From assembly GCF_030689685.1 (NCBI RefSeq), contig NZ_JAUYEY010000078.1, forward strand, positions 1 through 64,000: DNA of 64,000 bases, in the 5' to 3' direction. The position numbers were made by a program, and so were the translations under genes. Shown one piece after another: positions 4,319-63,876 of this stretch. Every line of letters starts with the position of its first letter. Positions within the stretch are counted from its first letter, which is position 1. The notes beneath the pieces are model-generated. The model saw only the letters and a list, made by a program, of their open reading frames with translations, was not told where the DNA came from and searched no databases. This stretch comes from Polaromonas sp. (GTDB lineage: Bacteria > Pseudomonadota > Gammaproteobacteria > Burkholderiales > Burkholderiaceae_C).

Positions 4319-5899
4319 TCAAGGTTTTATAGAAGGTTTTTGGGCTCCAGCCCTTTGCGGACGGGTTCGGACAGCTATCAATTCAGTAGCGTTTGACGGG
4401 GTGGCTGCGGCCTCCATCGCACCGCTCCAGGCGCGTATCACGGCGTAACTGCGCCAGGGCTTCCAGGCCAGCGAGGCCTGCTCGGCTTCCTTCGCTGGAT
4501 TTTTCAGGCCCTGCACACCGAGTGCCTTGTGCAGCGCCACGTCGCCGGCCGGAAAGGCATCTGGCCAGCGCAGCGCGCGCATGGCGATGTATTGCGCGGT
4601 CCAGTCGCCGATGCCGGGCAACTCTTTCAGCGCGGCAACAGTGGCATTCACATCCGCACCGCCATGCAGTTGCACCCGTTTTTCTGCCACCGCTTTAGCA
4701 ATACCGACAATCGCCGCCTGCCGCTGCCTGCCGATGCCAAGCTGGCCCAACACATCGCCGCTGGCCTGCGCCAGCACGGCGGCCGACGGAAACAGGCGCG
4801 TCAGGCCGGGCCAAGGTGTTTGAATCGGCTCGCCGAGTTTGTCGACCATGCGCTGCGCCAGCGTGCGTGCTGCCGCCACGGTGATCTGCTGGCCCAGCAC
4901 GGCGCGCACCGCCAGCTCGTAGCCGTCCATCGCGCCGGGAACACGCAGGCCGTCGCCACCGGGGAAACTGTCGTGCAGCACCGCGTTGATGGCCTGGGGG
5001 TCGGCGTCCAGGTCCAGCATGGCGCGCACCCGGCGTATCACCAGCGGCAACACTTCGCGCAAGGAGTCGCTGATGCGCAGCGCCACATGGCAGCGGCTTT
5101 CGTCAAAGCTCGCCATCAGCCAGCCGGCGTGGACCTTGCCGCCCGCCTCGACGCGGAAAGTGCGCCCCATGCGGGGGCCAGCCGCGCTCTCATCGACACA
5201 TTCAATCGCATGGATCTGCCGTTTTTTAAAGAAGCCGATCATGGCCGCTACGTCGTAGGGCGGGCGGTAGCCGAGTTTGACGGTGATGCCTTGGTCCGAC
5301 GGTGTGTTGCCCTGGCGCCGCAACTGCGTCGGGTTCAGGCCGTAGTGGCCGACAAAGGCGGCGTTGAAGCGGCGCACGCTCGCATAACCGCTGATCAGCG
5401 CAACCTGTGTGATCGGCAGCGCGGTGTCGGCCAGCAACTGCTTGGCCGTCAGCAGGCGGCGCGTTTGCAGGTACTGCATGGGCGAGACGCCAAATTGGGT
5501 CTCGAAAATGCGCCGGACGTGGCGGTCGCTGACACCGAGTTTTGCAGACAGCAATTCGACCGAAGGCGTTGCATCTCCCCAAGCCTCGGGCTCATCGAGA
5601 AGGCGCGCGGCCTGGTGCGCCAGGATGTAGCTGGCGTCCTGAATCGACCAGACCACCGAATGCGGCGCCAGTTCGGGCCGGCAGCGCAGGCAGGGCCGAA
5701 AGCCAGCGTTTTCTGCCTGCGCTGCATGGCCGAAGAAGCGGCAGTTTTCGCGCTTGGGTGTTTTCACGCTGCAGACCGGCCGGCAGTAGATGCCGGTGGA
5801 GGTCACGCCGGTGAAAAAACTGCCGTCAAAACGCGCGTCCCGCGTCTTCAGCGCGAGGTAGCAGGCGTCATCGGCGAGCAAGGCGTTGTCCGTGGTCAT
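4319..5899 (-). CDS. Ada metal-binding/AraC-HTH/AlkA DNA-3-methyladenine glycosylase fusion
   Basis: Ada-type Cys motifs (GIYCRPVC..CRFF..GFRPCLRCRPE), AraC HTH, AlkA HhH (LPGIGDWTAQYIAMRALRWPDAFPAGD). Confidence 0.93.
   Translation of the reverse strand: MTTDNALLADDACYLALKTRDARFDGSFFTGVTSTGIYCRPVCSVKTPKRENCRFFGHAAQAENAGFRPCLRCRPELAPHSVVWSIQDASYILAHQAARLLDEPEAWGDATPSVELLSAKLGVSDRHVRRIFETQFGVSPMQYLQTRRLLTAKQLLADTALPITQVALISGYASVRRFNAAFVGHYGLNPTQLRRQGNTPSDQGITVKLGYRPPYDVAAMIGFFKKRQIHAIECVDESAAGPRMGRTFRVEAGGKVHAGWLMASFDESRCHVALRISDSLREVLPLVIRRVRAMLDLDADPQAINAVLHDSFPGGDGLRVPGAMDGYELAVRAVLGQQITVAAARTLAQRMVDKLGEPIQTPWPGLTRLFPSAAVLAQASGDVLGQLGIGRQRQAAIVGIAKAVAEKRVQLHGGADVNATVAALKELPGIGDWTAQYIAMRALRWPDAFPAGDVALHKALGVQGLKNPAKEAEQASLAWKPWRSYAVIRAWSGAMEAAATPSNATELIAVRTRPQRAGAQKPSIKP
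4337..4390 (+). repeat. Repeat family A copy, inside the 3' end of alkA-like CDS
   Basis: TTTTTGGGCTCCAGCCCTTTGCGGACGGGTTCGGACAGCTATCAATTCAGTAGC. Confidence 0.8.
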
Positions 5900-6011
5900 G
5901 GCTGAATCATACGTTGCAGGCCGGTTCAGACTAGCCGTTTTCGGACATCTTCCCCGCCCACCCCCGCGCCTACAATCAGTGCGCTACAGCAACCCCAGGA
6001 AGGCCCCATCC

Positions 6012-7397
6012 ATGCAGGTGAACCCCTCGATTTTCAAGGCTTACGACATCCGCGGTGTCGTGCCTTCCACCGTCAACGAAGCCATGGCCGAAGCACTGGG
6101 CCGCGCTTTCGGCGCCAGTGCGCTGGCGCAGGGCGAGGCCACGGTGGCCGTGGGCCGCGATGGCCGGGTCAGCGGGCCTGCGCTCAGCGCGGCGCTGGTC
6201 CGTGGCCTGGTCGCCAGCGGCGTCGATGTGGTCGATGTCGGTATGGTCACCACGCCCATGCTTTATTTCGCGGCCAGTACGCTGGCGAATTCCGGCATCC
6301 AGATCACTGGCAGCCACAACCCCAAGGACTACAACGGCTTCAAAATGGTGATGGCCGGCCGCGCCATTTACGGCGACGAGATCCAGGGCCTGCGCCAGCG
6401 CATGGAAGCCGACGACAGCGCTGTACCGGCGCGCAGCGGAAAAGTCACCCTCGTCAACGTGCTCGCGCCTTACCGCGACCGCATCGTCTCTGACATTAAG
6501 CTGGCGCGGCCCATGAAGGTCGTGATCGACTCCGGCAACGGCATTGCCGGCGCTTCTGCCCCCGGCATCTTCCGCGCGCTTGGCTGCGAGGTGACCGAGC
6601 TGTTCAGCGAGGTGGATGGCGACTTTCCCAACCACCACCCGGACCCGAGCAAGCCGGAGAACCTGAAAGACCTGATCACCGCGCTGCAGGCCGGCGACGC
6701 CGAGCTGGGCCTGGCCTTCGACGGCGACGGCGACCGCCTGGGCATCGTCACGCGTGACGGCCAGAACATCTACCCGGATCGCCAGATGATGCTGTTTGCG
6801 CGCGATGTGCTTGCGCGTGTTCCGGGCGGCACCATCGTCTATGACGTGAAATGTTCGCAGCGACTGGCGCCCGAGATCACAGCGGCCGGTGGCGTGCCCA
6901 TGATGTACAAGACCGGCCACTCGCTGATCAAGGCGAAGATGAAAGAAGTCAACTCCCCGCTGGGCGGAGAGATGAGCGGCCACATCTTTTTCAAGGAGCG
7001 CTGGTTCGGCTTCGACGACGGCACCTATGCCGGCGCACGCCTGCTGGAGATCCTGAGCAAGGTGGCCGATGTGGGCGCGTTGCTCAATGGTCTGCCGACC
7101 AGTTTCAGCACGCCCGAGCTCAACGTGGCCTGCAAGGAGGGCGAGCCGCACATGGTGGTGGCGCAACTCATCAAAATAGCCTCTTTTGCGGCGCCGGCAA
7201 AGATCAGCACGATTGATGGTGTGCGCGTTGACTGGCCCGACGGCTTCGGCCTGATCCGCGCGTCCAACACCACGCCGGTGCTGGTGCTGCGTTTTGAAGG
7301 GCACACCGAGGCGGCGCTCAAACGCATCGAGACCGACATGCTCAAGCTGTTACGCAGTGTCAAGCCGGATGCGAATTTTTCCGCTCCCGCACATTGA
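6012..7397 (+). CDS. Phosphomannomutase/phosphoglucomutase
   Basis: IFKAYDIRG, TGSHNPKDYNGFKM, AFDGDGDRLG, SNTTPVLVLRFE motifs. Confidence 0.95.
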   Translation: MQVNPSIFKAYDIRGVVPSTVNEAMAEALGRAFGASALAQGEATVAVGRDGRVSGPALSAALVRGLVASGVDVVDVGMVTTPMLYFAASTLANSGIQITGSHNPKDYNGFKMVMAGRAIYGDEIQGLRQRMEADDSAVPARSGKVTLVNVLAPYRDRIVSDIKLARPMKVVIDSGNGIAGASAPGIFRALGCEVTELFSEVDGDFPNHHPDPSKPENLKDLITALQAGDAELGLAFDGDGDRLGIVTRDGQNIYPDRQMMLFARDVLARVPGGTIVYDVKCSQRLAPEITAAGGVPMMYKTGHSLIKAKMKEVNSPLGGEMSGHIFFKERWFGFDDGTYAGARLLEILSKVADVGALLNGLPTSFSTPELNVACKEGEPHMVVAQLIKIASFAAPAKISTIDGVRVDWPDGFGLIRASNTTPVLVLRFEGHTEAALKRIETDMLKLLRSVKPDANFSAPAH

Positions 7398-7408
7398 GCC
7401 CGCTTGCT

Positions 7409-7489
7409 GTCATCCCGGGCTCGACCCGGGATCCATGTTTCGAACTCCCGGCTGCGCGACGATGGATTGCGGGTCAAGCCCGCAATGAC
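7409..7489. repeat. Repeat family C, two-palindrome element just upstream of waaC
   Basis: GTCATCCCGGGCTCGACCCGGGATCC ... GGATTGCGGGTCAAGCCCGCAATGAC. Confidence 0.85.
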
Positions 7490-7494
7490 ATTCA

Positions 7495-8547
7495 GTGAAG
7501 ATTCTTCTGGTCAAACTCTCGTCGCTCGGCGACGTGGTGCACACGCTGCCTGTGGTGCAGGACATCCTGGCCGCACATCCTGCGGCGCAGATCGACTGGG
7601 TGGTGGAAAAGGCCTTTGCGCCGCTGCTGGCCCCGCTGCGGGGTGCGGGGCTGCAGCGCGTCATTCCCTGCGAGCTGCGTCGCTGGCGCCAATCGCCCTT
7701 CAGTGCGGCCACGCGCAGCGCGTGGCGCGCCTTCCGGCGCGAGTTGCAAAGCCAGCACTACGACGCGGTGATTGACCTGCAGGGGCTGACCAAGTCAGCG
7801 CTGGTTGCCTGGCTGGCGCGGCTGGCGCCTGGCGGCAAGCGTTACGCCATGGCCAACCAGACCGAAGGCTCGGGCTACGAGGCGCCAACACGCTGGGTGG
7901 CGGATGTGGCGATTGCCCTGGCGCCGCACAGCCACGCCGTAGTGCGTGGGCGCGAGCTGTGCGCGCGTGCGCTGGGCTACACCCCGGCGGAGCGTCCCGG
8001 TTATGGGCTCAATCGCTCTCCAGCCCATGTCGGGTGGACGCGGATTGCTCCTGAAACAATAGCGTTCGTACATGGCAGCTCGCGCCCCGACAAGCTCTGG
8101 CCGCTTGAACATTGGCTGGCGCTGGGGCGGCAACTGAATGCCCAGGGTTATCTGATCGCGCTGCCGCATGGCAGCGACGACGAACTGGCGATTAGCCAGG
8201 CGATTGCTCAGGGCTTGAACACCGGCGAAGAAAAAGCGGTCGTAAATGCAGTCGTGTTGCCCCGGCTTGCGCTGGACGAGCTCACGCAACAGCTCGCGCA
8301 GTGCGCCGGCGTCATCGGCGTGGACAGTGGGCTCAGCCACATCGCCGTGGCGCTCGACTTGCCGCATGTACAGATCTACAACTTCGACACCGCCTGGCGC
8401 ACCGGGCCGCTGCCGGATTCCACCGGGGAAGAGGGCGCTCGCCAGCTCAGCGTCTTCGCACAAGCTTCGCCGTCGGTCAGCCAGGTGTGGAATGCCTGGC
8501 TCACCTGTCAGCCAGCGCGTGCACATGCCCTTGGGGAGACGACGTGA
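7495..8547 (+). CDS. waaC: Lipopolysaccharide heptosyltransferase I
   Basis: MKILLVKLSSLGDVVHTLPVVQDI; DKLWPLEHW; GVDSGLSHIAVAL; followed by waaA. Confidence 0.93.
   Translation: MKILLVKLSSLGDVVHTLPVVQDILAAHPAAQIDWVVEKAFAPLLAPLRGAGLQRVIPCELRRWRQSPFSAATRSAWRAFRRELQSQHYDAVIDLQGLTKSALVAWLARLAPGGKRYAMANQTEGSGYEAPTRWVADVAIALAPHSHAVVRGRELCARALGYTPAERPGYGLNRSPAHVGWTRIAPETIAFVHGSSRPDKLWPLEHWLALGRQLNAQGYLIALPHGSDDELAISQAIAQGLNTGEEKAVVNAVVLPRLALDELTQQLAQCAGVIGVDSGLSHIAVALDLPHVQIYNFDTAWRTGPLPDSTGEEGARQLSVFAQASPSVSQVWNAWLTCQPARAHALGETT
8011..8063 (+). repeat. Repeat family A copy (diverged), in frame in waaC
   Basis: AATCGCTCTCCAGCCCATGTCGGGTGGACGCGGATTGCTCCTGAAACAATAGC. Confidence 0.6.
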
Positions 8548-9851
8548 TGGAGCGCTTCATCCGCAAGCTCTATTCGCTGCTGATGTGGGCCGCCCAGCCT
8601 TTTCTGCGGCGCAAGCTGTCGCGCCGGGGCCAGGCCGAGGCTGGTTACCTGGAAGCGGTGGACGAGCGCTTCGGCTTTTACACGCAGCCAGCCGAAGCGG
8701 GTTCTGAACTGGTTTGGGTGCATGCGGTGTCGCTGGGCGAAACGCGCACCGCCGGCATATTGATCGACGCGCTGCGCGGCCGGTGGCCGGGCCTGCGCGT
8801 GCTGCTGACCCATGGCACGGCCACTGGCCGCGCCGAGGGCGCCGGGCTGCTGCGGGGCGGCGACGTGCAGGTCTGGCAGCCCTGGGACAGCGAGGCCGCC
8901 GTCGCGCGTTTTTTCATGCACTTCAAGCCGCGCCTGGGCCTGCTGATGGAAACAGAGGTCTGGCCCAACACCGTGGCCAGCGCGCAGGCGCGCGGCGTGC
9001 CGCTGGCGCTGGTCAATGCGCGCCTGTCGGGCAAATCGCTGCAGCAGGCCGCCCGCATCGCGCCGCTGTCGCGCCCGGCCTATGCGGGCCTGGCGGCGGT
9101 GTACGCCCAGAGCGACAGCGATGCCGAGCGCCTGCGCGAGCTGGGGGCCACGGTGCAGGGCGTGTTTGGCAACCTCAAGTTCGACGCCACGCCGGACGCA
9201 GCGCAGCAGGCGCAGGGCCGGCAGTGGCGCCAGGCGCTGGGCCAGCCGGTGCTGATGCTTGCCAGCTCGCGCGAAGGCGAGGAAGACGATTTTCTCAAGC
9301 AAATAGTGGCTCTGGCCCTTTCCACACGGGCGCAACCAGCTATCAATACCGTAGCAGGCGCACACGTTCAGGTCCTCATCGTGCCGCGCCATCCGCAGCG
9401 CTTTGACGAGGTGCAGGCGCTGGTTGAAAAACATGGGCTCTCCGTCGCGCGCCGCTCGGCCTGGGGCGGCGAGCCGCAGACCGCCGATGTCTGGCTCGGC
9501 GACTCACTCGGCGAGATGGCGCTTTATTACGCGCTGAGCGACGTGGCCTTGCTGGGCGGCAGTTTTGCACCGCTGGGCGGGCAGAACCTGATTGAGGCCG
9601 CTGCCTGCAGCTGCCCCGTGATCATGGGCCCGCACACCTTCAACTTCGCCGAGGTGTCCGAACTGGCGGAAGCGGCCGGCGCCGCGCGCCGCGTGGCAGA
9701 CATGGACGAGGCGGTGCGCAGCGCCCGCGCCCTGCTGGCCCGGCCGACCACGCAGCAAGCGGCCGCAGCGGCCAGCCTGACGTTTGCGGCGCAGCACCGC
9801 GGCGCGGCGGCCAACACGGTGCAGGCACTCGCGCATTTTCTGAAAGCCTGA
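8547..9851 (+). CDS. waaA: 3-deoxy-D-manno-octulosonic acid transferase
   Basis: WVHAVSLGE, METEVWPN, GNLKFD, GGQNLIEAAACSCPVIMGPHTFNF; TGA/ATG overlap with waaC. Confidence 0.94.
   Translation: MERFIRKLYSLLMWAAQPFLRRKLSRRGQAEAGYLEAVDERFGFYTQPAEAGSELVWVHAVSLGETRTAGILIDALRGRWPGLRVLLTHGTATGRAEGAGLLRGGDVQVWQPWDSEAAVARFFMHFKPRLGLLMETEVWPNTVASAQARGVPLALVNARLSGKSLQQAARIAPLSRPAYAGLAAVYAQSDSDAERLRELGATVQGVFGNLKFDATPDAAQQAQGRQWRQALGQPVLMLASSREGEEDDFLKQIVALALSTRAQPAINTVAGAHVQVLIVPRHPQRFDEVQALVEKHGLSVARRSAWGGEPQTADVWLGDSLGEMALYYALSDVALLGGSFAPLGGQNLIEAAACSCPVIMGPHTFNFAEVSELAEAAGAARRVADMDEAVRSARALLARPTTQQAAAAASLTFAAQHRGAAANTVQALAHFLKA
9301..9354 (+). repeat. Repeat family A copy, in frame in waaA
   Basis: AAATAGTGGCTCTGGCCCTTTCCACACGGGCGCAACCAGCTATCAATACCGTAGC. 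Confidence 0.8.
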
Positions 9852-9855
9852 GTTC

Positions 9856-10974: not shown

Positions 10975-11337
10975 GCAATTAGGCTAGCTATCGACAGTCT
11001 TGGATGGTCGATAGGCAGCCGATGTGACTGTTTTCGAGAAAAAGCTGAATTAGCACGCGCTCAACTGTTGGGGCTCGACATGCACGCAAAGGTAGCGCAA
11101 TAGTGACTACACGATCTCCACTAAACTCAGGCGGCGCTGGGTCGGCGTCTGGGCAGACGCCGGGACGTGATCGAAAAACAAAGAGTAAGAAGTTGCTGCT
11201 CTAAGTATTTGACCGCCAGGACGAGGCTGGGCGACATTGCCTGATCGATCAGTTATAGGCCTCAGCCACAGCAGATCGTTGAAGAACGATATTTTTGCTT
11301 GAATGAAAACTTCAATAAGACGTGAGGAATGCAGCAT

Positions 11338-14402: not shown

Positions 14403-14449
14403 CAGCGACGTTTTGCCGAGGGTTGGCTTGCTTTGACGCGCTGTAGTTC

Positions 14450-14504
14450 GCTACTTATTTGATAGCTATTGGCGCTTAAGGGGCGGAGGCTGGAGGCCGA
14501 TTTG
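14450..14504 (-). repeat. Repeat family A copy, intergenic
   Basis: revcomp AAATCGGCCTCCAGCCTCCGCCCCTTAAGCGCCAATAGCTATCAAATAAGTAGC. Confidence 0.85.
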
Positions 14505-14561
14505 ATGCCTAATGCCGATCCATCGTCCTGAGGAGTTCTCATCCCGCACTGTTCATGAATG

Positions 14562-14615
14562 AAAACGGGCTCCGGCCCTTTGGGTACGGGCGTGACCAGC
14601 TACTGAATGGATAGC
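14562..14615 (+). repeat. Repeat family A copy, intergenic, inverted relative to the copy at 14450
   Basis: AAAACGGGCTCCGGCCCTTTGGGTACGGGCGTGACCAGCTACTGAATGGATAGC. Confidence 0.8.
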
Positions 14616-14707
14616 GAATTAGTCGGCCCATACATTCAACGGGCGTGCTCCCGGGCCATCAGCACGTCCGAATTGCATTCGGTACCTGAAAATGGTACCA
14701 TTTAACA

Positions 14708-21207: not shown

Positions 21208-21212
21208 CGCGA

Positions 21213-23970: not shown

Positions 23971-23977
23971 TGAAAAC

Positions 23978-24032
23978 GCTCTTAAATTAATAGCTGCTTA
24001 CGCCCGCGTGGTATGGGCTAGAGGCCAATTTG
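23978..24032 (-). repeat. Repeat family A copy, intergenic
   Basis: revcomp CAAATTGGCCTCTAGCCCATACCACGCGGGCGTAAGCAGCTATTAATTTAAGAGC. Confidence 0.85.
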
Positions 24033-24148
24033 ACCATTAAAAACGCCGTACGCAGCCGTGTCTGAGGTTTTTGGGCCGGTGCGACCAGTGACTGGCTATT
24101 TTCCAGGATGATGGTTGTTTGATTGCTGTATATAAAAAAGGACGAGGC

Positions 24149-31197: not shown

Positions 31198-32549
31198 GCA
31201 CGCCCGCAGCCCCGGGCCAAACCCTGGCGCAAAAACTCATCGCGCGTGCGGCGGGTGTGGCGTCTGTGCAGCCCGGTGAGATTGTCACCTGCAAGGTGGA
31301 CATGGCCATGTTCCACGACTCGTCCGGCCCGCGCCGGCTCAAGCCCATGCTGGAAGCGCTGGGCGCGCAGATCTGGGACAAGTCGCGCGTGGTGCTGGTG
31401 ATGGACCACTACGTGCCCGAGCGTGACGACGAGTCGCGCCAGATTGTGCGTATTGCGCGTGACTGGGCGCGTGAGCAGCACCTGCCCCATGTGTACGACA
31501 GCCAGGGCATTTGCCATGTGGTGGTGGCGCAGCAGGGCCACATCCGCCCCGGCATGTTCTGTGTGGGCGGCGACTCGCACTCGCCCACGGGCGGGGCTTT
31601 TGGCGCCTACATGTTCGGCATCGGCAGCACCGAAATGCTGGGCGTGATGGTGACCGGCGGGATCTGGCTGCGTGTGCCGCGCACCGTGCGCATGTGCTGG
31701 GATGGCCGGCTGACCCCCGGCGTTTGCGCCAAAGACATGATGCTGCACATGATTGCCCGCTTCGGCATGAACGGCGGCCAGTACCAGGCGGTTGAATTTT
31801 GCGGCCCCGCAGTGCAGGCGTTGGCCATGAACGAGCGCATGACGCTGTCCAACATGAGCGCCGAGCTGGGCGCGCAAGCCGGGCTGATTGCGCCCGATGC
31901 GACCACGCTGGCCTGGCTGGCGGCGCAGGCGGCGCAGGCCGAAAAAATTGATAAAAAAGTGGCTCCAGCCCAGGCGGAACGTGCGCAGGCAGCTATCAAA
32001 TCAATAGCAGATATAAATCAATGGCAGACCGATGCGGCGGCCCTGGACAGCCCCGACTGCATCACCCATCGCTTCGACGCAGCCGCACTCGAGCCCGTGG
32101 TGGCCGCGCCGCACAGCCCGGCCAATGCGCAAGCGGTGTCGGCGTTTGCCGGCACAGCCATTGACGTGGCCTACATCGGCGCCTGTACCGGCGCCAAGCT
32201 CGACGACCTGCGCGCCGCCGCGCAGGTGTTGCGTGGCCGCCGCGTGGCCAGCGGCGTGCGGCTGATGGTGGCGCCGGCCAGCCTGCGCGACCAGGAAGCA
32301 GCGCGCGACGAAGGCGTGTTGCAGATCCTGCAGGACGCCGGGGCCGAGTTGTTTCCCACGGCCTGCGGCGCCTGCGCCGGTTTTGGCGACACGCTGGGTG
32401 ACCACACCACCGTGATATCGAGCACGGCGCGCAACTTCAAGGGCCGCATGGGCTCGGCGACCGCACAGGTCTATCTGGGCTCGCCCTACACGGTGGCGGC
32501 GTCGGCGCTGCACGGCAAAATCACCGACCCGCGCGAGGAGCTCGCATGA
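31194..32549 (+). CDS. Aconitase/IPM isomerase family large subunit (hydro-lyase)
   Basis: GDSHSPTGGAFGAYMFGIGSTE; YIGACTGAKLDDL; FPTACGACAGFGDTLG. Confidence 0.9.
   Translation: MSTPAAPGQTLAQKLIARAAGVASVQPGEIVTCKVDMAMFHDSSGPRRLKPMLEALGAQIWDKSRVVLVMDHYVPERDDESRQIVRIARDWAREQHLPHVYDSQGICHVVVAQQGHIRPGMFCVGGDSHSPTGGAFGAYMFGIGSTEMLGVMVTGGIWLRVPRTVRMCWDGRLTPGVCAKDMMLHMIARFGMNGGQYQAVEFCGPAVQALAMNERMTLSNMSAELGAQAGLIAPDATTLAWLAAQAAQAEKIDKKVAPAQAERAQAAIKSIADINQWQTDAAALDSPDCITHRFDAAALEPVVAAPHSPANAQAVSAFAGTAIDVAYIGACTGAKLDDLRAAAQVLRGRRVASGVRLMVAPASLRDQEAARDEGVLQILQDAGAELFPTACGACAGFGDTLGDHTTVISSTARNFKGRMGSATAQVYLGSPYTVAASALHGKITDPREELA
31953..32007 (+). repeat. Repeat family A copy, in frame in the aconitase-like large subunit
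   Basis: AAAAAAGTGGCTCCAGCCCAGGCGGAACGTGCGCAGGCAGCTATCAAATCAATAGC. Confidence 0.85.
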
Positions 32550-41601: not shown

Positions 41602-42254
41602 TCAGCACCCGGCAACTGGCCTACCAGTACCCGGGCGGCGCCGAGCTGCGGTTTGAAGACATGGCTGTGCCGCAGGGTGGGGTGGTTCTGTTGCGCGGCG
41701 CCTCGGGCTCGGGCAAGTCAAGCTGGCTGGCGCTGGCGGCCGGGCTGCTGGCGCCAACGGCGGGCGACATCACCGTTGCCGGCCAGTCCATGGCCACGCT
41801 GGGCAAGGTCGCGGGTGACGCCTGGCGCGCCAGAACGATTGGTTTTCTGCCGCAAAAGCTGCATTTGAGCGAAGCACTGACGGTGCACGCCAACCTGGCG
41901 ATGGCGCAATGGGCGGCGGGGCAGGCGCAGGACGACGGCCGCATCCGCGAGGCGCTGACGGCGCTGGGTGTGGCTGAACTGGCAGCACGCAAACCAGGGC
42001 AACTCTCTGGCGGGCAAGCCCAGCGGGTCGCGCTGGCGCGGGCGGTGCTGTTGCAGCCGAAAGTGATTCTGGCGGACGAGCCGACGGCCAGCCTGGATGA
42101 CGAGGCCGCGAGCCAGGCGGTGCAGTTGCTGCAGGCGACTGCCACGCGTTACGGCGCGACGCTGGTGATTGCCACGCACGATTCGCGGGTGGCGGCCAAT
42201 CTGGATGGTCAAATCGGCTACCAGCCCTTATTCTTTGTGCGTAACCAGCTATGA
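41598..42254 (+). CDS. ABC transporter ATP-binding protein (LolD/MacB type)
   Basis: RGASGSGKSSWLALAAGLL; LSGGQAQRVALARAVLLQPKVILADEPTASLD. Confidence 0.94.
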   Translation: MISTRQLAYQYPGGAELRFEDMAVPQGGVVLLRGASGSGKSSWLALAAGLLAPTAGDITVAGQSMATLGKVAGDAWRARTIGFLPQKLHLSEALTVHANLAMAQWAAGQAQDDGRIREALTALGVAELAARKPGQLSGGQAQRVALARAVLLQPKVILADEPTASLDDEAASQAVQLLQATATRYGATLVIATHDSRVAANLDGQIGYQPLFFVRNQL

Positions 42255-42264
42255 AAACAATAGC
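42211..42264 (+). repeat. Repeat family A copy, spanning the ABC ATPase stop and permease start
   Basis: AAATCGGCTACCAGCCCTTATTCTTTGTGCGTAACCAGCTATGAAAACAATAGC. Confidence 0.8.
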
Positions 42265-43465
42265 AATCGCCTGGCGGTTTTTGTGGGCACGGCCGCTGGC
42301 GGCGGGCCTGAACCTGTTGCTGCTGAGTCTGGGGCTGGCATCGTTGAGTTTTGTGCTGCTGGTTAGCCACCAGATCACGCGAGCTTTTGAGCGCGACCTG
42401 GCCGGCATCGACGTGGTGGTGGGAGCCAAGGGCAGCCCGATGCAACTGATTCTGTCGGGCGTGTTTCACCTGGACGTACCCACCGGCAATGTGCCGCTGG
42501 CGGCGGTCAAGGCGCTGGCACAGCACTCGCAGGTGGCCAAACTGATCCCCTTGAGTCTGGGCGACAGCGTTAGCGGGTTCCGCATCGTGGGTACCACGCC
42601 GGCCTACATCGCACATTACCAGGCCAGCTTTGCGCAGGGCGGCGTCTGGGCCGCGCCGCTGCAGGCGGTGCTGGGCGCGCAGGTGGCGGCGCAGACCGGG
42701 CTGAAGGTGGGTGAGCGTTTTGTTGGCAGCCACGGCCTGGGCAGCGGTGGCGCCAGCCATGACCAGGCGCCTTATGTGGTCAGCGGCGTGCTGGCTGCCA
42801 GCGGCTCGGTGCTGGACCGGCTGGTGCTGACCGCGCAAGAGTCGGTCTGGCAGGTGCACGAAAAAATGCATGAGGGCGACAGCGCGCTCGACGACGAAGA
42901 CCGCAAGGCGCTGGAGGCCGAGCGCGAAGTCACGCTGGCGCTGATTCAATACCGCACACCGCTGGCGGCGGTCACCTTCCCGCGCTTTGTGAACACCACC
43001 ACCGAGATGCAGGCCGCCGCGCCGGCGCTGGAGATCACGCGCCTCTTGAGGCTGATCGGCGTCGGCACCGACGTGTTGCGTGCGCTGGCGGGTGTGCTGC
43101 TGCTGACAGCGGGCCTGAGTGTCTTCATCGCGCTGTGGAGCGCAGTGCGCGAGCGTCGGGCCGACCTGGCGCTGCTGCGTTTGCTGGGCGCGCCGCCGCG
43201 CAAGGTGGCGGCACTGCTGCTGTGCGAGGCGCTGTGGCTGGCGCTGCTGGCCGCGGTGATTGGCGTGCTGGCGGGCCAGGGGCTGATGGCGTTGCTGGGT
43301 TGGCTGCTGCAGCTAGAAAAATCAGTCCTGATCGGCACACTCGCGTGGCCAGCGGGGCTGTGGGGTGTGCCGGCCCTGGCGGTGGGGGTGGCGCTGCTGT
43401 CAGCACTGCTGCCGGCCTATGAGGCCTACCGGGTCAGTGTGTTTGAACTTTTACAATCGAGGTGA
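42251..43465 (+). CDS. ABC transporter permease (FtsX/MacB type)
   Basis: IDVVVGAKGSPMQLILSGVFHLDVPTGNVPL; C-terminal FtsX TM block; ATGA overlap with ATPase. Confidence 0.93.
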   Translation: MKTIAIAWRFLWARPLAAGLNLLLLSLGLASLSFVLLVSHQITRAFERDLAGIDVVVGAKGSPMQLILSGVFHLDVPTGNVPLAAVKALAQHSQVAKLIPLSLGDSVSGFRIVGTTPAYIAHYQASFAQGGVWAAPLQAVLGAQVAAQTGLKVGERFVGSHGLGSGGASHDQAPYVVSGVLAASGSVLDRLVLTAQESVWQVHEKMHEGDSALDDEDRKALEAEREVTLALIQYRTPLAAVTFPRFVNTTTEMQAAAPALEITRLLRLIGVGTDVLRALAGVLLLTAGLSVFIALWSAVRERRADLALLRLLGAPPRKVAALLLCEALWLALLAAVIGVLAGQGLMALLGWLLQLEKSVLIGTLAWPAGLWGVPALAVGVALLSALLPAYEAYRVSVFELLQSR

Positions 43466-43470: not shown

Positions 43471-43734
43471 ATGCCCATGAAATTGATGAAAAAAATGGCC
43501 TCAGCCCTTGCTGCACTTGCGCTGGCAGCTACGTTTTCGATAGCGCATGCGCAGCACAGCGACAAACAAACCAAGGAAGACGTGTTGCGCCACCGCGCCA
43601 TGGCCAGCGCGCATGAGGCCGCCGCCAAGTGTCTGGAATCGGGCAAAAAGGAAGATATTTGCATGAAAGACCTGCAGGCTTCCTGCAAAGGGCTGGCGGT
43701 GGGAAAATACTGCGGAATGAAACACGCGCATTGA
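43471..43734 (+). CDS. Small secreted Cys-containing protein
   Basis: Signal peptide MKKMASALAALALAATFSIAHAQ; HEAAAKCLESGKKEDICMKDLQASCKGLAVGKYCGMKHAH. Confidence 0.75.
   Translation: MPMKLMKKMASALAALALAATFSIAHAQHSDKQTKEDVLRHRAMASAHEAAAKCLESGKKEDICMKDLQASCKGLAVGKYCGMKHAH
43490..43544 (+). repeat. Repeat family A copy, encoding a signal peptide core
   Basis: AAAAAATGGCCTCAGCCCTTGCTGCACTTGCGCTGGCAGCTACGTTTTCGATAGC. Confidence 0.65.
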
Positions 43735-50160: not shown

Positions 50161-50197
50161 GGCTTGCCGCTGTTTGCTGCGGGCGGGAATCCCAAAT

Positions 50198-50253
50198 GCT
50201 ATAGATTTTATAGCTACACGCGCTTATCTGGTATGGGTTGGAAGCCGATATGG
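50198..50253 (-). repeat. Repeat family A copy, intergenic
   Basis: revcomp CCATATCGGCTTCCAACCCATACCAGATAAGCGCGTGTAGCTATAAAATCTATAGC. Confidence 0.85.
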
Positions 50254-50323
50254 CTAATAAAAACAACGCACAGGTGCTTGAACCTGCAAAGCCTGGAAGG
50301 CATCGGCCGCAGATAGGATCCTG

Positions 50324-54649: not shown

Positions 54650-54699
54650 TCACAGCATGATGTGCTGGTGCATGCCACCCGTTATGATTTGGCAGCAGG

Positions 54700-54837: not shown

Positions 54838-54838
54838 C

Positions 54839-55846: not shown

Positions 55847-55867
55847 AGCGCGCTAAGAACAAGTTCC

Positions 55868-56035
55868 TAGGAGCCTGGGCGGCAGAAGGAACGTCGGCTG
55901 CAAAGCGGCCGCGACGGTCCATTTTCCACCGGCTTTTTGCCCCATAGCTACGGCTATGAGGCTGCAAACCCGGCAAAAACTGTCCTCGCCGGGGCCACTT
56001 TTCGCTTCGACGCCTTCTGCCGCCCAGGCTCCTAG
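55868..56035. mobile_element. MITE-like element, about 168 bp, perfect 23-bp terminal inverted repeats
   Basis: CTAGGAGCCTGGGCGGCAGAAGG at both ends in inverted orientation (55868-55890 / 56013-56035, left end written CTAGG from 55868); internal hairpins; no ORF. Confidence 0.7.
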
Positions 56036-57009
56036 TAACGCGCGGGCTGCGACAGCTCGGCAAACAGTTCGCTATACAAACGATAGCGGATTGCGCTTAT
56101 TCTGCCTGGGCTGGAGGTTGATTTGGCTTCGAAAATCACGCCGCAGCCGGGTTCGTGCAGGTGTGTGCAGTTGTAGAACTTGCAGTCCTGCGCATGCACC
56201 TTGAGGTCAGGCATGTAGTTGGCCAGGTGCATGGGGTCAATGTGGTGCAGGCCGAACTCCTGGAAACCCGGCGAGTCGATCAGCGCGCTGCTGCGCTCCG
56301 CATCGATCCAGTACAGCGTGGTGCTGGTGGTCGTGTGTTTGCCCGAGTTAAGCGCCTGCGATATTTCAGCCGTCAGCACCTGCGCGTTCGGCACCAGCAG
56401 GTTGGTCAGGCTGCTTTTTCCGGCACCCGACGGGCCCAGCACCAGTGTTTTTTTGCCGCGCAGCAGCGCCAGCAACTGCTGGTACTGCGCGTCGTTGGCC
56501 ACCGGCGCATCGGTTCTGGGCTTGATCGCGAGCGGCAACACCTGGTAGCCCATCGCACGGTAAGGTTCCAGCTTGACCCAGGCGCGGCCGAAGGGTTCGG
56601 CCAGATCGCTTTTGTTCAGCGCGATGATGGGTGTAATGCGTTCTGCTTCAGCGGCGATCAGCGCGCGCGTGAGCTGACTTTCCGAAAACTCGGGCTCGGC
56701 CGCGATGAGGATCAGCACCTGGTCGAGGTTGGCCGCAAACGACTTGGTGCGCATCTCGTCCTGCCGGTAAAACAGGTTGCTGCGCTGCTCGACCTTTTCA
56801 ACCGTGCCTTCGTCCTGCGAGGGCAGCCACTGGACGCGGTCGCCGACCACGGCCTGGCTTTTTTTGCCGCGCGGGTGGCAGATCAGGCGCTGGCCGTCAG
56901 GCGTTTCAACCAGGCAATGCCGGCCAAATCCCGCGACCACCAGGCCGGGCAGGGTCCCGGCGGAAGAAACAGTGGTCAAGCCAGCAGTGCGTCGACTTTG
57001 GACGCGCAA
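56032..57009 (-). CDS. rsgA: Ribosome small subunit-dependent GTPase A
   Basis: VLGPSGAGKSSLTNLLVP; ALIDSPGFQEFGLHHID; zinc-binding CKFYNCTHLHEPGC. Confidence 0.96.
   Translation of the reverse strand: MRVQSRRTAGLTTVSSAGTLPGLVVAGFGRHCLVETPDGQRLICHPRGKKSQAVVGDRVQWLPSQDEGTVEKVEQRSNLFYRQDEMRTKSFAANLDQVLILIAAEPEFSESQLTRALIAAEAERITPIIALNKSDLAEPFGRAWVKLEPYRAMGYQVLPLAIKPRTDAPVANDAQYQQLLALLRGKKTLVLGPSGAGKSSLTNLLVPNAQVLTAEISQALNSGKHTTTSTTLYWIDAERSSALIDSPGFQEFGLHHIDPMHLANYMPDLKVHAQDCKFYNCTHLHEPGCGVIFEAKSTSSPGRISAIRYRLYSELFAELSQPARY
56071..56126 (-). repeat. Repeat family A copy, in frame in rsgA
   Basis: revcomp CCAAATCAACCTCCAGCCCAGGCAGAATAAGCGCAATCCGCTATCGTTTGTATAGC. Confidence 0.75.
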
Positions 57010-57293
57010 AAAAAGTCGCTGACTGAAATACCCTTGACGTCATGCGTGTTGAAACGCACCGTGCATTTGCCGTAACTCAGCGTCAGGTCGGGATGGTGGT
57101 CTTCGGCGTTGGCGATGAAGGCCACGGCATTCACAAAGGCGATGGTCTCGTAGTAGTTCTTGAAGCCGTAGGTTTTTTCGAGCGAGCCATTGATCAGCCG
57201 CCAGCCCAGCGCCTGCTCGCCATTGAGCTGGCTGAGCTGGGTCACGATCTCGGTGGCGCTCAACGCGCGGCGGTTCTGGTGAATCGGATTCAT
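56976..57293 (-). CDS. phhB: 4a-hydroxytetrahydrobiopterin dehydratase
   Basis: FKNYYETIAFVNAVAFIANAEDHHPDLTLSYGKCTVRFNTHDVKGIS. Confidence 0.94.
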   Translation of the reverse strand: MNPIHQNRRALSATEIVTQLSQLNGEQALGWRLINGSLEKTYGFKNYYETIAFVNAVAFIANAEDHHPDLTLSYGKCTVRFNTHDVKGISVSDFFCASKVDALLA

Positions 57294-58576: not shown

Positions 58577-58611
58577 GGGTCGAAGTTTAGGCGATCAGCG
58601 AGAATCGCAAG

Positions 58612-59175
58612 ATGCTTGTTACAGAACCCCTGCTTAAAAAATCCGACCAGAACCTGGTCTGGCTCGACTGTGAGATGACCGGGCTGGACCCGGACAAGGA
58701 GCGCATCATTGAAATCGCCGTGGTGGTGACCGGCCCGCAACTTACGCCGCGCATTGAGGGGCCGGTGTTGGTGATCCACCAGACGGACGAGTTGTTGGAT
58801 CAGATGGACAACTGGAACAAGGGTACACACGGCCGCAGCGGCTTGATCGACAAGGTCAAGGCCAGTTCGGTGACCGAGGAGGATGCCGAAAAGCAGGTGC
58901 TGGCCTTTCTGGCCAAGTATCTGCCCAAGGGCACCTCGCCGTTGTGCGGCAACACCATCAGCCAGGACCGGCGCTTCCTGGTCAAGTACATGCCCAAACT
59001 TGAGGTGTTTTTGCATTACCGCAACATCGATGTCAGCACCTTCAAGGAACTGGCCAAACGCTGGCGGCCCGAGGTGTACAGCGCTTTCAAAAAGCAGCAA
59101 AGCCACACCGCGCTGGCCGATGTGCATGAATCGATTGACGAGCTGGAATATTATCGGACCCACTTTTTGAAGTGA
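58612..59175 (+). CDS. orn: Oligoribonuclease
   Basis: [44 protein letters not shown]. Confidence 0.97.
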
Positions 59176-59228
59176 ATCTGGCCCTTAGCCCTTGCCATAA
59201 AAGAGGTGACAGCTATCAAATGAGGAGC
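59173..59228 (+). repeat. Repeat family A copy, starting at the orn stop codon
   Basis: TGAATCTGGCCCTTAGCCCTTGCCATAAAAGAGGTGACAGCTATCAAATGAGGAGC. Confidence 0.75.
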
Positions 59229-59553
59229 AAATGCGGTTCACCCGCAAGCGTTTGCTGGTCTTTTGACAGTTGGGGCTGGTAGAAACCCGCTAGCCGTGGC
59301 ATAATCGTGGGCTTGACGGACGTACAGGGGTGCGCCGCATTTGTACATCTACCTCACACTTTTGGGCTCTACCAACAGAGCCATCGCTTCAGGCACCGGT
59401 TGACCGGGAGTCGCCCGAACCGAAATATTCGTTTGATGGTTGATGTTTTATTAACCATGAACGAAGCCTTGCCGCTACGCGGCAGGTTCTAGTTTCTTGT
59501 TCGCCTGCCCACCACAAGCGGGGCAGCGCGGACAAGTGTTTAGTGAGAAAAAC

Positions 59554-61506
59554 ATGACTGACTCTTTTGAGGCTCGCGGCGATTCTTTGGCCGAAGCAAC
59601 TACCGACATCATTTCCGATATGGAAATCAACGTACTTTCTGATTTTTCTGATGCGCCTGCAGCAGCAGAAACGTCGCTGGATGCCATTGCGCCGGAGCCC
59701 AACGGCTTCGTGAAGCTGGGCCTGGCCAAGGAATTGCTGCAAGCCGTGGCCGACATGGGTTTCACCCAGCCGACCGCCGTGCAGATGGCTACCATCCCGA
59801 AAGCCATGCAGGCGCTGGATGCTGACGTCAAGGCCGACCCCAAGGCAAAATTCACCGACTTGCTGGTGTCCAGCCAGACCGGCAGCGGCAAGACCGCAGC
59901 CTTCCTGTTGCCCGTGCTGCACACACTGCTCAAGCAGCAGGAAGAGGCCGAGCGCAGCGAACGCGCTGAATTTGAACGCCTGTCGCTTGAGGCGGTTGCC
60001 CGCGGCGAGCCGCCATTGAAGAAACCCAAGCGCAAGGACCCGACCAACGCGCGCAATTTCAAGGCCGCCACACCCGGCGCCCTGATCCTGTGCCCGACCC
60101 GCGAGCTGGCCCAGCAGGTCTGCGCCGATGCGATTGATCTGGTGCGCCATTGCCGCGGCCTGCGCATTGCCAACGTCGTTGGCGGCATTCCTTACCAGTT
60201 GCAAATTGCCAAGCTGCAAAACGCCGACCTCGTGGTGGCCACGCCCGGCCGCCTGCTGGACCTGCAGCGCAGCATGCAGATCAAGCTCGACCAGGTGCAG
60301 TTCCTCGTGGTTGACGAAGCCGACCGCATGCTTGATCTGGGCTTTGCCGACGACCTGACCGAAGTCAACCAGCTCACGATCGAGCGCAAGCAGACCATGA
60401 TGTTCAGCGCCACGTTTGCGCCCCGCATCATGCAACTGGCCACGCGCGTCATGCGCCAGCCGCAGCGTGTCGAGATCGATTCCCCGCATGAAAAACACGC
60501 GTCGATCACGCAATCGCTGCTGTGGGCCGACAACATGAGCCACAAGCGCAAGCTGCTGGACCATTCGCTGCGCGACACCACCATGAACCAGTCCATTGTG
60601 TTCGCCTGCACCCAGGTCGAATGTGACGGCTTGGCCAACGACCTGGTGCAGGAGGGCTTCAGCGCCGTGGCGCTGCATGGCGCCCTGGGCCAGGGCCTGC
60701 GCAATCGTCGCCTGATGGCTTTCCGTGATGGCCGCGTGCAGATTCTGGTGGCGACCGACGTGGCTGCCCGTGGCCTGGACGTGCCGACCATCACCCACGT
60801 GATCAACTACGGCCTGCCGATGAAAGCCGAAGACTATGTGCACCGCATCGGCCGTACCGGCCGTGCTGGCCGCGAAGGCCAGGCGATCACGATTGCCGAG
60901 TTCCGCGACCGCCGCAAGATCCAGGACATCGAACACTACACCCAGCAAAACCTCAAGCCCAGCGTGATCGCCGGCCTGGAGCCACAGCAGCGTTTTGCGC
61001 CAACGTCAGATCGCCCGCGCGGCAATTTTGGCGGTGACCGTGGCCGCAGCTTCGGCGCTGGTGGCGGTGGCCGTTTCGGCAACGACCGCGCGCCTTCGGG
61101 TGGTTTCGGTGGCGCCGGCGGCGGATATGCCGGCAAGAAGCCTGCTTTCGGCGACCGTGGCGGTGACCGCAGTGGTTTTGGCGGCAACCGTGACGACCGT
61201 GGCGCACCTTTCCAGGGACGCCCGGCGCCCCAGGGTCCTGCTTATGCGGACCGCTCGGGTTTCAATGATCGCGGCCCGCGCCGTGATGACCGTGGCTTCG
61301 GCGGCGGCAATGGCAACAGCGGTGGTTTCGCCCAGCGCGATGACCGGGGGGGTGATCGCGGTGGCTTCGGCGGCGGCCGTTCGGAAGGTTTTGCATCCGC
61401 GCCACGCGGCGATTTTGCCGACCGCAAACCGGCGTTCGCCAAGCCGGCAGGCAAGGTGTTTGTGCCGCGTGACGCCCACAAACGTCCGACCCGCCCCGCA
61501 CGTTGA
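59554..61506 (+). CDS. DEAD-box RNA helicase, RhlE-like, with Gly/Arg-rich tail
   Basis: SSQTGSGKTAAFLLPVL; VVDEADRMLD; SATFAPRIM; HRIGRTGRAGREG; RGG-like C-terminus. Confidence 0.95.
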   Translation: MTDSFEARGDSLAEATTDIISDMEINVLSDFSDAPAAAETSLDAIAPEPNGFVKLGLAKELLQAVADMGFTQPTAVQMATIPKAMQALDADVKADPKAKFTDLLVSSQTGSGKTAAFLLPVLHTLLKQQEEAERSERAEFERLSLEAVARGEPPLKKPKRKDPTNARNFKAATPGALILCPTRELAQQVCADAIDLVRHCRGLRIANVVGGIPYQLQIAKLQNADLVVATPGRLLDLQRSMQIKLDQVQFLVVDEADRMLDLGFADDLTEVNQLTIERKQTMMFSATFAPRIMQLATRVMRQPQRVEIDSPHEKHASITQSLLWADNMSHKRKLLDHSLRDTTMNQSIVFACTQVECDGLANDLVQEGFSAVALHGALGQGLRNRRLMAFRDGRVQILVATDVAARGLDVPTITHVINYGLPMKAEDYVHRIGRTGRAGREGQAITIAEFRDRRKIQDIEHYTQQNLKPSVIAGLEPQQRFAPTSDRPRGNFGGDRGRSFGAGGGGRFGNDRAPSGGFGGAGGGYAGKKPAFGDRGGDRSGFGGNRDDRGAPFQGRPAPQGPAYADRSGFNDRGPRRDDRGFGGGNGNSGGFAQRDDRGGDRGGFGGGRSEGFASAPRGDFADRKPAFAKPAGKVFVPRDAHKRPTRPAR

Positions 61507-61520
61507 TTCGTGTCGGCAAC

Positions 61521-61551
61521 AAAAAAAGCCCGCAGCTTGCGGGCTTTTTTT
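61521..61551 (+). terminator. Rho-independent terminator after helicase gene
   Basis: AAAAAAAGCCCGCAGCTTGCGGGCTTTTTTT. Confidence 0.9.
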
Positions 61552-61567
61552 ATGGACACATCGACCG

Positions 61568-62461
61568 TCAGCTCATGCCATTGCGACTGGCCAGTTCGAC
61601 AAACAAGCCAGAGTGGTCCAGGTCGCTGAGGCCATGGCCGATGCCGTCGGCGTAAAGCTGTTCGAACAGCGTGGTCACCGGTGCGTCGAAACCGATCTCT
61701 TCGGCCGTTGCGAGTGCATTGCGCAGGTCCTTGAGCTGGATCGCCATGCGGGCGCGCGGTGCAAAGTCGCGTTCCACCATGCGTTCGCCATGTACCTGCA
61801 GGATGCGGCTGTCGGCAAAGCCGCCAGTGATCGCCTCCCTGACCTTGGCCATGTCGGCGCCGCCTTTGGTGGCAAACAGCAAGGCTTCGGCCACCGCGCC
61901 TATGGTGATGCCGACAATCATCTGGTTGGCGAGTTTGGTGAGCTGCCCCGCGCCGTGTGAGCCGACGTGGGTGGCGCGACCGAAGATGCGCAAGACAGGC
62001 AGGGCGCGTTCAAATTCCGCTTCCTTGCCGCCGGCCATGATGACCAGCGTGCCCTGATCGGCACCGCCGGTGCCGCCGGAAACTGGCGCGTCGATGTGGG
62101 CGATGCCCATCGCGCCCAGACGTGCGGCATGGTCGCGCGCCTCGCGTGGCTTGATCGAGGCCATGTCGATGAACAGCGCACCCGGTTGCATCGCGGCGGC
62201 GATGTCCTGCCCAAACAACACGTCTTCCACCACCGCGCCGTTTTCCAGCATGCCGACCACGATGTCGGCGTTTTTCACTGCGGCTGTGGCCTGCGTGTGC
62301 ACCACTGCGCCCAGCGCAGTCAGTGAGGCGGCCTTCTGTGGTGTGCGGTTCCACACCTGCAGGGCGTAGCCGGCTTCGCAAAGCCGTCTGGCCATGGGAA
62401 GCCCCATGCTGCCTGTGCCGAGAAAGGCAATGCGGAAATTCGATGTCGTGCTTGTACTCAT
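61568..62461 (-). CDS. NAD(P)-dependent 3-hydroxyisobutyrate/tartronate-semialdehyde dehydrogenase-type oxidoreductase
   Basis: IAFLGTGSMGLPMARRLCEAGYALQVWNRT; DAPVSGGTGGADQGTLVIMAGG. Confidence 0.92.
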   Translation of the reverse strand: MSTSTTSNFRIAFLGTGSMGLPMARRLCEAGYALQVWNRTPQKAASLTALGAVVHTQATAAVKNADIVVGMLENGAVVEDVLFGQDIAAAMQPGALFIDMASIKPREARDHAARLGAMGIAHIDAPVSGGTGGADQGTLVIMAGGKEAEFERALPVLRIFGRATHVGSHGAGQLTKLANQMIVGITIGAVAEALLFATKGGADMAKVREAITGGFADSRILQVHGERMVERDFAPRARMAIQLKDLRNALATAEEIGFDAPVTTLFEQLYADGIGHGLSDLDHSGLFVELASRNGMS

Positions 62462-62517
62462 GGGTATCCAAAGATGGTGTTGCCACCATCATGCGGCACG
62501 CAGCAGTGGGAAGGCTG

Positions 62518-63876
62518 TCAGGCAGCTTTCTTCATGGCGGGAGCGAACATGTTCTCCATCTCGTGGCGCACCTTGTAGGCCGGGGTGGAGGTGTCCATGG
62601 CGACATCGGCCCAGCTCAGGCTTTGACCTTTCTTGACGGCACGGATGACCTTGACCTGGTGCGCCAGGCCCAGCGGCAGGCCACCCATTTTCATGGAGGT
62701 GTCGGCCGGCAGCAGCTTGCCCCAGACGGTGTAGCCGCCTTCGCCGTCCAGCATGTCGCCGGGTTTCAGATCGCGTTTGGCGGTGGCTACCACATCGGCA
62801 TTCCAGCAGGTCGCAACGCCGGTCGGCTCGCCGCGCAGCGCCACGCTGGCCACCGACACGCCAACCTCCAGCCCTATCAGGTGCCAGCGCTTGTAGAGCG
62901 TGAAGTAGCGCCCGCTCGGGTCGGTGTGTGCGTTGTACTCTTCAAAGCAGTTCTTGATGTAGTCGGTCTCGGCCTCGACCGTGACCCAGACGCCCATGCG
63001 GATGTCGTAGGGAATCTTGCGGCCATTGGCTTCCAGCGAGGAAATCACCTCGACCATGCCCTTGCGTTCGAGCACACCACCCTCTTGAATAGGTCGCGTG
63101 ACGTAAGGAATGTCTTCCACGCTGGCCGGCGGATACAGCAGGCCGTTGCTGGGCACAGTCAGGCCGGTGGCGTTGGCCACGGCGGTGGATTCGATCGACG
63201 GTTTGGAGCCGTCGAGAAAGCTGTTGAACATTTTTGGGTTGAGCCCGCCGCGCTCGGCCTGCTCGGGCGTGAGACCGTAGTTGGCCCAGACGGTTTCCGG
63301 CGTGGATTCGGAAAAATGCGGCAGCCACTTGTGGCCGCGGCCCGCCGCCACCACCGGAAAACCGCAGGTGCGGGCCCAGTCCACCAGGTCGCAGATCAGC
63401 GCCGGCTGGTCGCCGAAAGCCAGTGAATAGACGACACCGGCCTCGGCCGCCTTGCGTGCCAGCAGCGGTCCGCAAAAGGCATCGGCTTCCACCGTGACGT
63501 TGACCACGTGTTTGCCATGCGTAAAAGCCTGCAGGCAATGCTCGACGGCGGCGACCGGGTTGCCGGTGCACTCGACGATGATGTCGATCTGCGGGTGCGT
63601 GACGACGGCTTTCCAGTCCTCGGTGATCCAGGTCGCTCCTGTTTTGATAGCTGCTTGCGCTGATTCTGCCTGGGTCAGGGCCGGATTCCATCCCACACGT
63701 GCAAGGTTGGTGCGGGCGGCCGCAGGTGACAAGTCGGCAATTGCGACCAGGTGCACGCCCGGCGTTTTCGGAATTTGCGCCAGGTACATGGAGCCGAATT
63801 TTCCGGCGCCTATGAGGCCGATGCGGATGGGTTGCTTGTCGGCCGCGCGTTGCTGGAGTTTGGTATAGAGGTTCAT
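62518..63876 (-). CDS. NAD(P)-binding oxidoreductase with C-terminal SAF-like domain
   Basis: IRIGLIGAGKFGSMYLAQI; VECTGNPVAAVEHCLQAF; VATAKRDLKPGDMLDGEGGYTVWGKL. Confidence 0.85.
   Translation of the reverse strand: MNLYTKLQQRAADKQPIRIGLIGAGKFGSMYLAQIPKTPGVHLVAIADLSPAAARTNLARVGWNPALTQAESAQAAIKTGATWITEDWKAVVTHPQIDIIVECTGNPVAAVEHCLQAFTHGKHVVNVTVEADAFCGPLLARKAAEAGVVYSLAFGDQPALICDLVDWARTCGFPVVAAGRGHKWLPHFSESTPETVWANYGLTPEQAERGGLNPKMFNSFLDGSKPSIESTAVANATGLTVPSNGLLYPPASVEDIPYVTRPIQEGGVLERKGMVEVISSLEANGRKIPYDIRMGVWVTVEAETDYIKNCFEEYNAHTDPSGRYFTLYKRWHLIGLEVGVSVASVALRGEPTGVATCWNADVVATAKRDLKPGDMLDGEGGYTVWGKLLPADTSMKMGGLPLGLAHQVKVIRAVKKGQSLSWADVAMDTSTPAYKVRHEMENMFAPAMKKAA
63635..63688 (-). repeat. Repeat family A copy, in frame in the SAF-domain oxidoreductase
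   Basis: revcomp GGAATCCGGCCCTGACCCAGGCAGAATCAGCGCAAGCAGCTATCAAAACAGGAGC. Confidence 0.8.

Follow-up and report, generated by a model that had tools for sequence, protein, structure and literature searches.

What is a short repeat doing at 13 places in 64 kb of Polaromonas DNA, in part inside conserved genes? The stretch, hereafter the window, comprises positions 1 to 64,000 of contig NZ_JAUYEY010000078.1 of Polaromonas sp. (assembly GCF_030689685.1). The original prediction described a nameless family of ~54-bp elements in this stretch and compared them to Rickettsia palindromic elements (RPEs), which fold into a conserved hairpin and insert in-frame inside open reading frames (ORFs). We followed the element through the genome that contains the window (G000; 4.11 Mb in 103 contigs) and through related genomes, which are designated here by G numbers. 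Our best reading is that the element behaves as a maintained tag, unlike a leftover mobile repeat, and it is very probably a site in double-stranded DNA that is recognized by its sequence and kept in place.

All 13 listed sites carry the element and align without gaps over 57 bp. Each copy reached 25.6 to 56.7 bits against a matrix derived from the remaining 12 copies, whereas no other position in the window, on either strand, exceeded 3.8, and the family is therefore real. The nhmmer E-values for the 13 copies ranged from 2e-13 to 3e-09. The length of ~54 bp proved slightly short, as the unit consists of a 57-bp core plus A/T tracts, ~70 bp altogether. The profile spans ~70 bp, with ~53 bits within the 57-bp core, and contains, in order, a T tract, an A tract, GGCCTCYAGCCC, a variable centre, GCGCAAGCAGCTAT, an A tract, and ATAGC. 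A GC-rich core of ~40 bp thus has A/T tracts on either side, and the GC content of the 57-bp core in G000 is 0.40 to 0.61. AAA and TTT exchange for each other at element positions 12-15 and 55-58, and the tail is near-palindromic. The family remains nameless as far as we could find: a search of the openly accessible literature yielded neither a name for the element nor a description of it, and there was no Rfam match within the window.

The genome-wide figures rest on pattern searches and on an unbiased 464-kb sample consisting of three long contigs plus the window. An 18-base tail pattern, allowing up to two mismatches, yielded 172 matches in the whole genome compared with 0 for the reversed pattern. 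A looser tail pattern yielded 532 matches compared with 2 for the control, although the near-palindromic tail means that some of these sites are counted on both strands. The sample contained 67 copies, all ungapped, and its reversed control returned nothing below E = 0.85. Extrapolation gives about 590 copies per genome, corresponding to ~14 per 100 kb or ~1 per 7 kb. Copies occur on both DNA strands, no tandem arrays were found, and spacing is near random (coefficient of variation of 0.90 compared with 0.95), with close pairs scarcer than random (4.8% compared with 9.6%). No indels were detected among the 67 copies, which share a mean pairwise identity of 54% and a maximum of 79% (over 71 bp), with no fresh duplicates. 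By heuristic gene calls, the sample is 86% coding; 26 copies lie inside coding sequence (CDS), 18 at a CDS edge, and 23 between genes, which upholds the earlier estimate that about half are in genes or at their edges. The shared frame on the sense strand that had been noted for four or five coding copies holds for most copies in the window but not in general: of the 26 copies in CDS, 14 run in the sense direction (12 of them in one frame) and 12 are antisense.

Copies of the element are conserved between species. Among five Polaromonas species (~82% identity), 245 of 270 projected sites are held in common, and only a handful of sites have been lost without an indel. In 112 orthologous copy pairs, the more information the profile holds at a position, the higher the identity there (r = 0.69 for intergenic copies and 0.77 for those in CDS). 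GCTA is identical in 112 of 112 pairs, compared with ~80% identity in the flanks and ~70% at low-information positions. Inside genes, the motif is carried at the expense of rare codons. In 61 CDS copies, the mean rank of the element codons is the 1.3rd percentile of codon adaptiveness within their own gene (90% are below the 5th percentile), with ATA, CTA, and GTA enriched 15-fold, 12-fold, and 7-fold, respectively.

We then compared orthologues from four close Polaromonas species (~82% nucleotide identity) and from other genera at individual sites. The copy in a LeuC-like gene is an in-frame insertion of ~57 bp (~19-22 amino acids) that is missing from ~110 orthologues, including those of all the close species. 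At two intergenic sites, 55-56 bp are cleanly present in some species and absent from others. The motif can therefore be gained or lost as a whole unit. At the three presence/absence sites, where the flanks are only ~80% identical, neither terminal inverted repeats nor target duplications were visible. Elsewhere, length did not change: the proteins that contain the RsgA and DRL copies keep the same length from genus to genus, the coding sequence around the PhhB site of relatives is of unchanged length, and an AlkA site near window position 5145, which resembles the motif in three species but does not in the window genome, shows a length difference of 0-1. The RPE-like mode of in-frame insertion thus describes the LeuC copy but not the RsgA, DRL, AlkA, and PhhB sites. 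As a general account it is not supported, given that there is no hairpin covariation, there are no near-identical copies, and positions are conserved between species. RPEs are a loose analogy to the element, not a family to which it belongs. The LeuC copy resembles an RPE in sitting in-frame in a protein without destroying it; however, RPEs belong to another clade, the present element is shorter and has no supported fold, and most of the genic copies tested are not insertions. The possibility that genic copies are ordinary coding sequence in distant orthologues was borne out in part, since the protein segments concerned in RsgA and DRL are old and unremarkable, whereas at the DNA level the motif is almost confined to element-rich genomes.

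In other genera, the outline of the element is retained and the centre differs by genus. The centre reads GCCC..TGCTCAAG in G036, GCCGGCGTATTTATTGCCT in G032, GCGCTTGCC-GGCAAGCGC in G121, G016, G011, and G001, and GCGCAGGT..ACCTGCGC in G040. At the colinear C-terminus of RsgA, 12 of the 15 element-rich genera have the motif, with a universal score of about +28 to +52, whereas 12 element-poor genera (0-3 matches) score between -51 and +2, except for one at +23. At its centre, the RsgA copy fits the dialect of its own genus better than expected (permutation P = 0.0016 for nine genera; for the five that are well sampled, P = 0.008, which is the lowest value attainable), and the encoded residues shift with the dialect: GCGCAA gives Ser-Ala, GCTCAAG gives Ser-Ser, and GCCTAGA gives Ser-Leu-Glu. 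A PhhB-like gene adjoins rsgA. Its N-terminal residues ATEIVA are encoded by GCT ACN GAA ATA GTA GCA in many element-rich genera, compared with GCC ACC GAG ATC GTG for the same residues in element-poor genera (P = 0.003); the window genome has no motif at PhhB. The motif therefore occupies the same RsgA and PhhB codons across genera, at RsgA in each genus's own dialect, for which a relic of transposition is insufficient and a maintained site fits. Own-dialect copies also occur in the loops of KdtA and of the glycosyltransferase family 9 protein in genera with good profiles, where independent insertion is possible.

The element was seen in named contigs of Polaromonas and occasionally of Acidovorax and other Comamonadaceae, and it was not found in 445 kb of Variovorax. 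Among 151 genomes spread evenly over the family, about 45 match the Polaromonas tail roughly 12 times or more, and most of the rest do not match it at all; in 300 Burkholderiales genomes from 50 families, one family is clearly above control and 49 are not, with the low counts in other taxa being lower bounds due to the Polaromonas bias of the pattern. The element is denser in DNA common to species than in accessory DNA (15.9 compared with 5.0 per 100 kb; P = 6e-6). The plasmids of Polaromonas JS666 and CJ2 contain 0 copies in 250 kb, compared with 36 expected at chromosomal density (the chromosomes of these strains were left out). A phage search returned no element match, and viral contigs contained no exact match to the tail. 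Among plasmids, the Polaromonas consensus retrieved one Diaphorobacter record, the G036 consensus retrieved none, and the GCGC dialect retrieved two Comamonadaceae plasmids plus an integron cassette. A 242-kb plasmid of Diaphorobacter sp. HDW4A has intergenic copies around a cobN/TonB-receptor cluster, and the element is therefore not strictly chromosomal.

How might such sites be kept? The explanation that we rank highest combines a maintained site, a genus-specific reader, and an uptake-type self tag, and we consider its chances to be only a little short of even. A putative DNA-reading factor, presumably a protein, would keep the 500-600 sites per genome in place, with a specificity that varies between genera. 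New sites would arise rarely as whole units of 55-57 bp, as in LeuC, and otherwise through point changes in place, even in conserved genes. As the preference of the factor shifted, existing sites would follow, giving rise to the genus dialects. The tag could be kept by biased uptake and recombination during natural transformation, as are the DNA uptake sequences (DUS) of neisserial species and the uptake signal sequences (USS) of Haemophilus. A role as an uptake-type self-DNA tag, drawn by analogy with these systems, is a tentative assignment. Like DUS and USS, the element is present in hundreds of copies on both strands, in genes and between them, and is enriched in core DNA and depleted in foreign DNA and plasmids. 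DUS dialects track clades and can change the encoded amino acids (PMC3630211), as the dialects of the element do. A/T tracts flank the core of both USS and the element, and those of USS are recognized through DNA shape (PMC7811141). The exchange of AAA and TTT would suit reading of a narrow minor groove in double-stranded DNA. Within the same family, Verminephrobacter eiseniae is naturally transformable, and a preference for certain sequences has been suggested (PMC4212676).

Several observations weigh against this explanation. The known uptake sequences are 9-12 bp long and occur ~1 per kb in many perfect copies; in contrast, the present element is ~57-70 bp long, occurs once per ~7 kb, and has 0 perfect consensus copies. 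Gain and loss of whole units of 55-57 bp is unusual for uptake sequences, whose role in uptake has been demonstrated, and no receptor candidate was found for the element. At PhhB, G036 alone clearly matches its own dialect, and G040 does so only slightly. The P values for RsgA and PhhB are weakened because the rich and poor genera are phylogenetically related, and the conservation measure is inflated because it needs both copies of a pair to be detectable.

An architectural role fits almost as well as an uptake tag, although we rank it below the latter and regard it as unlikely. A nucleoid-associated or segregation protein would act on a ~60-bp site every ~7 kb, folding or orienting the chromosome, and selection would keep the sites. 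Maintenance, chromosomal location, and genus dialects are accounted for as they are by a tag, the A/T tracts on either side of the core suggest bent or wrapped DNA, and close pairs are scarcer than random, although spacing is otherwise near random. In the complete genome G005, the strands of 26 of 26 listed tail matches split into two chromosome arcs (P = 0.0002). However, this orientation is confounded by the choice between AAA and TTT in the near-palindromic tail, and strand polarity is absent in Polaromonas, weak in G004, and of opposite tendencies in G032 and G126; we therefore did not use it as evidence. The element shares with parS, matS, KOPS, and Chi the features of a site that a sequence-specific reader keeps in place and that is tolerated in genes, but those motifs are only 8-16 bp, and selecting several hundred sites of ~50 bits individually seems costly. 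We know of no chromosome-organizing motif that has the length of the element or genus dialects. A miniature mobile repeat, mobilized by a transposase in trans and leaving copies that are ageing insertions, is less probable still, and as a full account it is strongly disfavoured. The LeuC insertion and the two clean 55-56-bp sites favour it, and genus subfamilies resemble the products of genus-specific masters. Such a repeat would be akin to repetitive extragenic palindromic sequences (REP/REPINs), miniature inverted-repeat transposable elements (MITEs), or RPEs. In common with REP/REPINs, the element has hundreds of short chromosomal copies with a genus-specific sequence, and a single-copy gene for a RAYT-like Y1 transposase (PF01797, ~240 amino acids) is present in nearly all element-rich genomes. 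That gene is found in 113 of 151 genomes of the family regardless of the element, including many that are element-free; the element is no more frequent around it than in the background, and it is missing from G021, which has 480 matches, so we rejected it as the mobilizer. The absence of indels and near-identical copies, the conservation of informative positions, and the in-place RsgA and PhhB sites of unchanged length likewise argue against ageing insertions, as does, within the limits set by flanks of ~80% identity, the lack of visible terminal inverted repeats or target duplications. There is also no covariation in the proposed hairpins, and 26 of the 67 sampled copies lie within CDS, which sets the element further apart from REP/REPINs.

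Another dispersed chromosomal repeat, the beta-proteobacterial repeat element BRE, has been reported in Polaromonas and other Comamonadaceae, in some cases within ORFs (Hot et al. 2011, PMC3110155). By its description, BRE is 75-91 bp long with a GC content of 64-79% in Bordetella, is tandem in places, and reaches at most 29 copies; the present element is set apart by its ~57 bp, lower GC content, hundreds of copies, and lack of arrays. A transcriptional or RNA element (a terminator, small RNA, or processing site) acting on neighbouring genes is the least probable of the specific alternatives, and we give it very little credence. Copies are often near gene ends, some overlap stops and starts, and inverted pairs exist (14444/14551), but many copies lie wholly within genes, about half of these in antisense, and no T-run occupies the position expected for a terminator. 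The AAA/TTT exchange also speaks against RNA. A structure in RNA or single-stranded DNA is unlikely because hairpin pairing is not consistently above shuffles: RNAalifold proposed only three weak pairs, and Watson-Crick pairing within genera gave z values of -4.8 to +2.7. The remaining probability belongs to regulation or to something unforeseen.

To our knowledge, uptake tags are established in two bacterial families only, Neisseriaceae (DUS) and Pasteurellaceae (USS). The element may represent a new class of ~57-bp genus-dialect self tag in Comamonadaceae, used for selective transformation or for another self/non-self or chromosome-handling system, a proposal that we offer as possible rather than probable. 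If it is an uptake tag, Comamonadaceae would be a third family, with a differently built tag whose dialects would set species boundaries, and the origin of uptake specificity would become directly testable. If it is an architecture site, it would be far longer than any segregation or architecture motif that we can name. In either case, if the sites are maintained, common environmental bacteria rewrite their own genes, despite the codon cost, to keep hundreds of long DNA addresses. The motif also affects annotation, as it shapes or supplies the LeuC insert, the KdtA loop, a signal-peptide-like N-terminus, and apparently part of the Pfam family DUF1010. The copies in the window and the other features with coordinates are listed in Table 1.

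Table 1. Positions of the element copies in the window and of other features discussed
Feature	Record	Position	Core	Strand	Context	E	Other genomes
Copy 1	Window	4326..4396		+	Antisense in 3' end of Ada/AlkA-type gene (4319-5899, -)	8e-11 (nhmmer)	Also in G206, G154
Copy 2	Window	7999..8069		+	In-frame, variable loop of glycosyltransferase family 9 gene (PF01075)	3e-9	Common to 4 Polaromonas species; other forms there in other genera
Copy 3	Window	9291..9361		+	In-frame, variable loop of KdtA (Kdo transferase; PF04413)	1e-12	Loop likewise occupied in many genera
Copy 4	Window	14444..14514		-	Intergenic; inverted pair with copy 5	2e-11	
Copy 5	Window	14551..14621		+	Intergenic	2e-12	
Copy 6	Window	23972..24042		-	Intergenic	3e-17	Kept in 5 related species, one flank not kept
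Copy 7	Window	31944..32014	31952-32008	+	In-frame insertion in LeuC-like aconitase-family gene	3e-13	
Copy 8	Window	42200..42270	42208-42264	+	Covers stop of ABC-ATPase ORF and supplies start codon of next FtsX-type permease (CTATGAAAACAATAGC; Pfam); CTATGA stop/start overlap	2e-11	Kept in G183 and G199
Copy 9	Window	43480..43550	43488-43544	+	Codes most of signal-peptide-like N-terminus (MKKMASALAALALAATFSIAHAQ; read by eye) of small protein	2e-11	Also in G183, G199
Copy 10	Window	50192..50262		-	Intergenic	2e-12	Not found in G183
Copy 11	Window	56065..56135		-	Within rsgA C-terminal coding sequence	1e-11	Length same as orthologues without motif
Copy 12	Window	59164..59234		+	Directly after stop codon (CDS edge)	2e-9	Also in G183
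Copy 13	Window	63629..63699		-	Within DRL-type oxidoreductase gene	6e-8	Length same as orthologues
RAYT-like gene	G000, C16	45529-45852			Y1 transposase		
Plasmid copies	NZ_CP049911.1	1911-1974, 6001-6066 (examined stretch)			Intergenic, Diaphorobacter sp. HDW4A		
Cassette copy	NZ_MZ513635.1	1189-1248 (examined stretch)			Class 1 integron cassette	3e-12	
Second repeat	G000, C22	70113-70283			Separate repeat family		

The search with the GCGC dialect extended to an integron cassette. It matched 1,749 plasmid records in PLSDB, nearly all enterobacterial, with DUF1010 annotated at the match where an annotation was listed. In NZ_MZ513635.1, a near-complete copy in the GCGC dialect lies in the class 1 integron cassette between dfrA12 and aadA2, which we take to be gcuF/orfF, and overlaps Pfam DUF1010. 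The presence of this copy suggests that the cassette came from a Comamonadaceae chromosome with the element, and the overlap suggests that DUF1010 is in part a translated copy of the motif.

Separately, a second and apparently unrelated repeat family of ~130-160 bp, with copies 78-94% identical, is present in the window genome. It has more than 60 matches in five related Polaromonas genomes.

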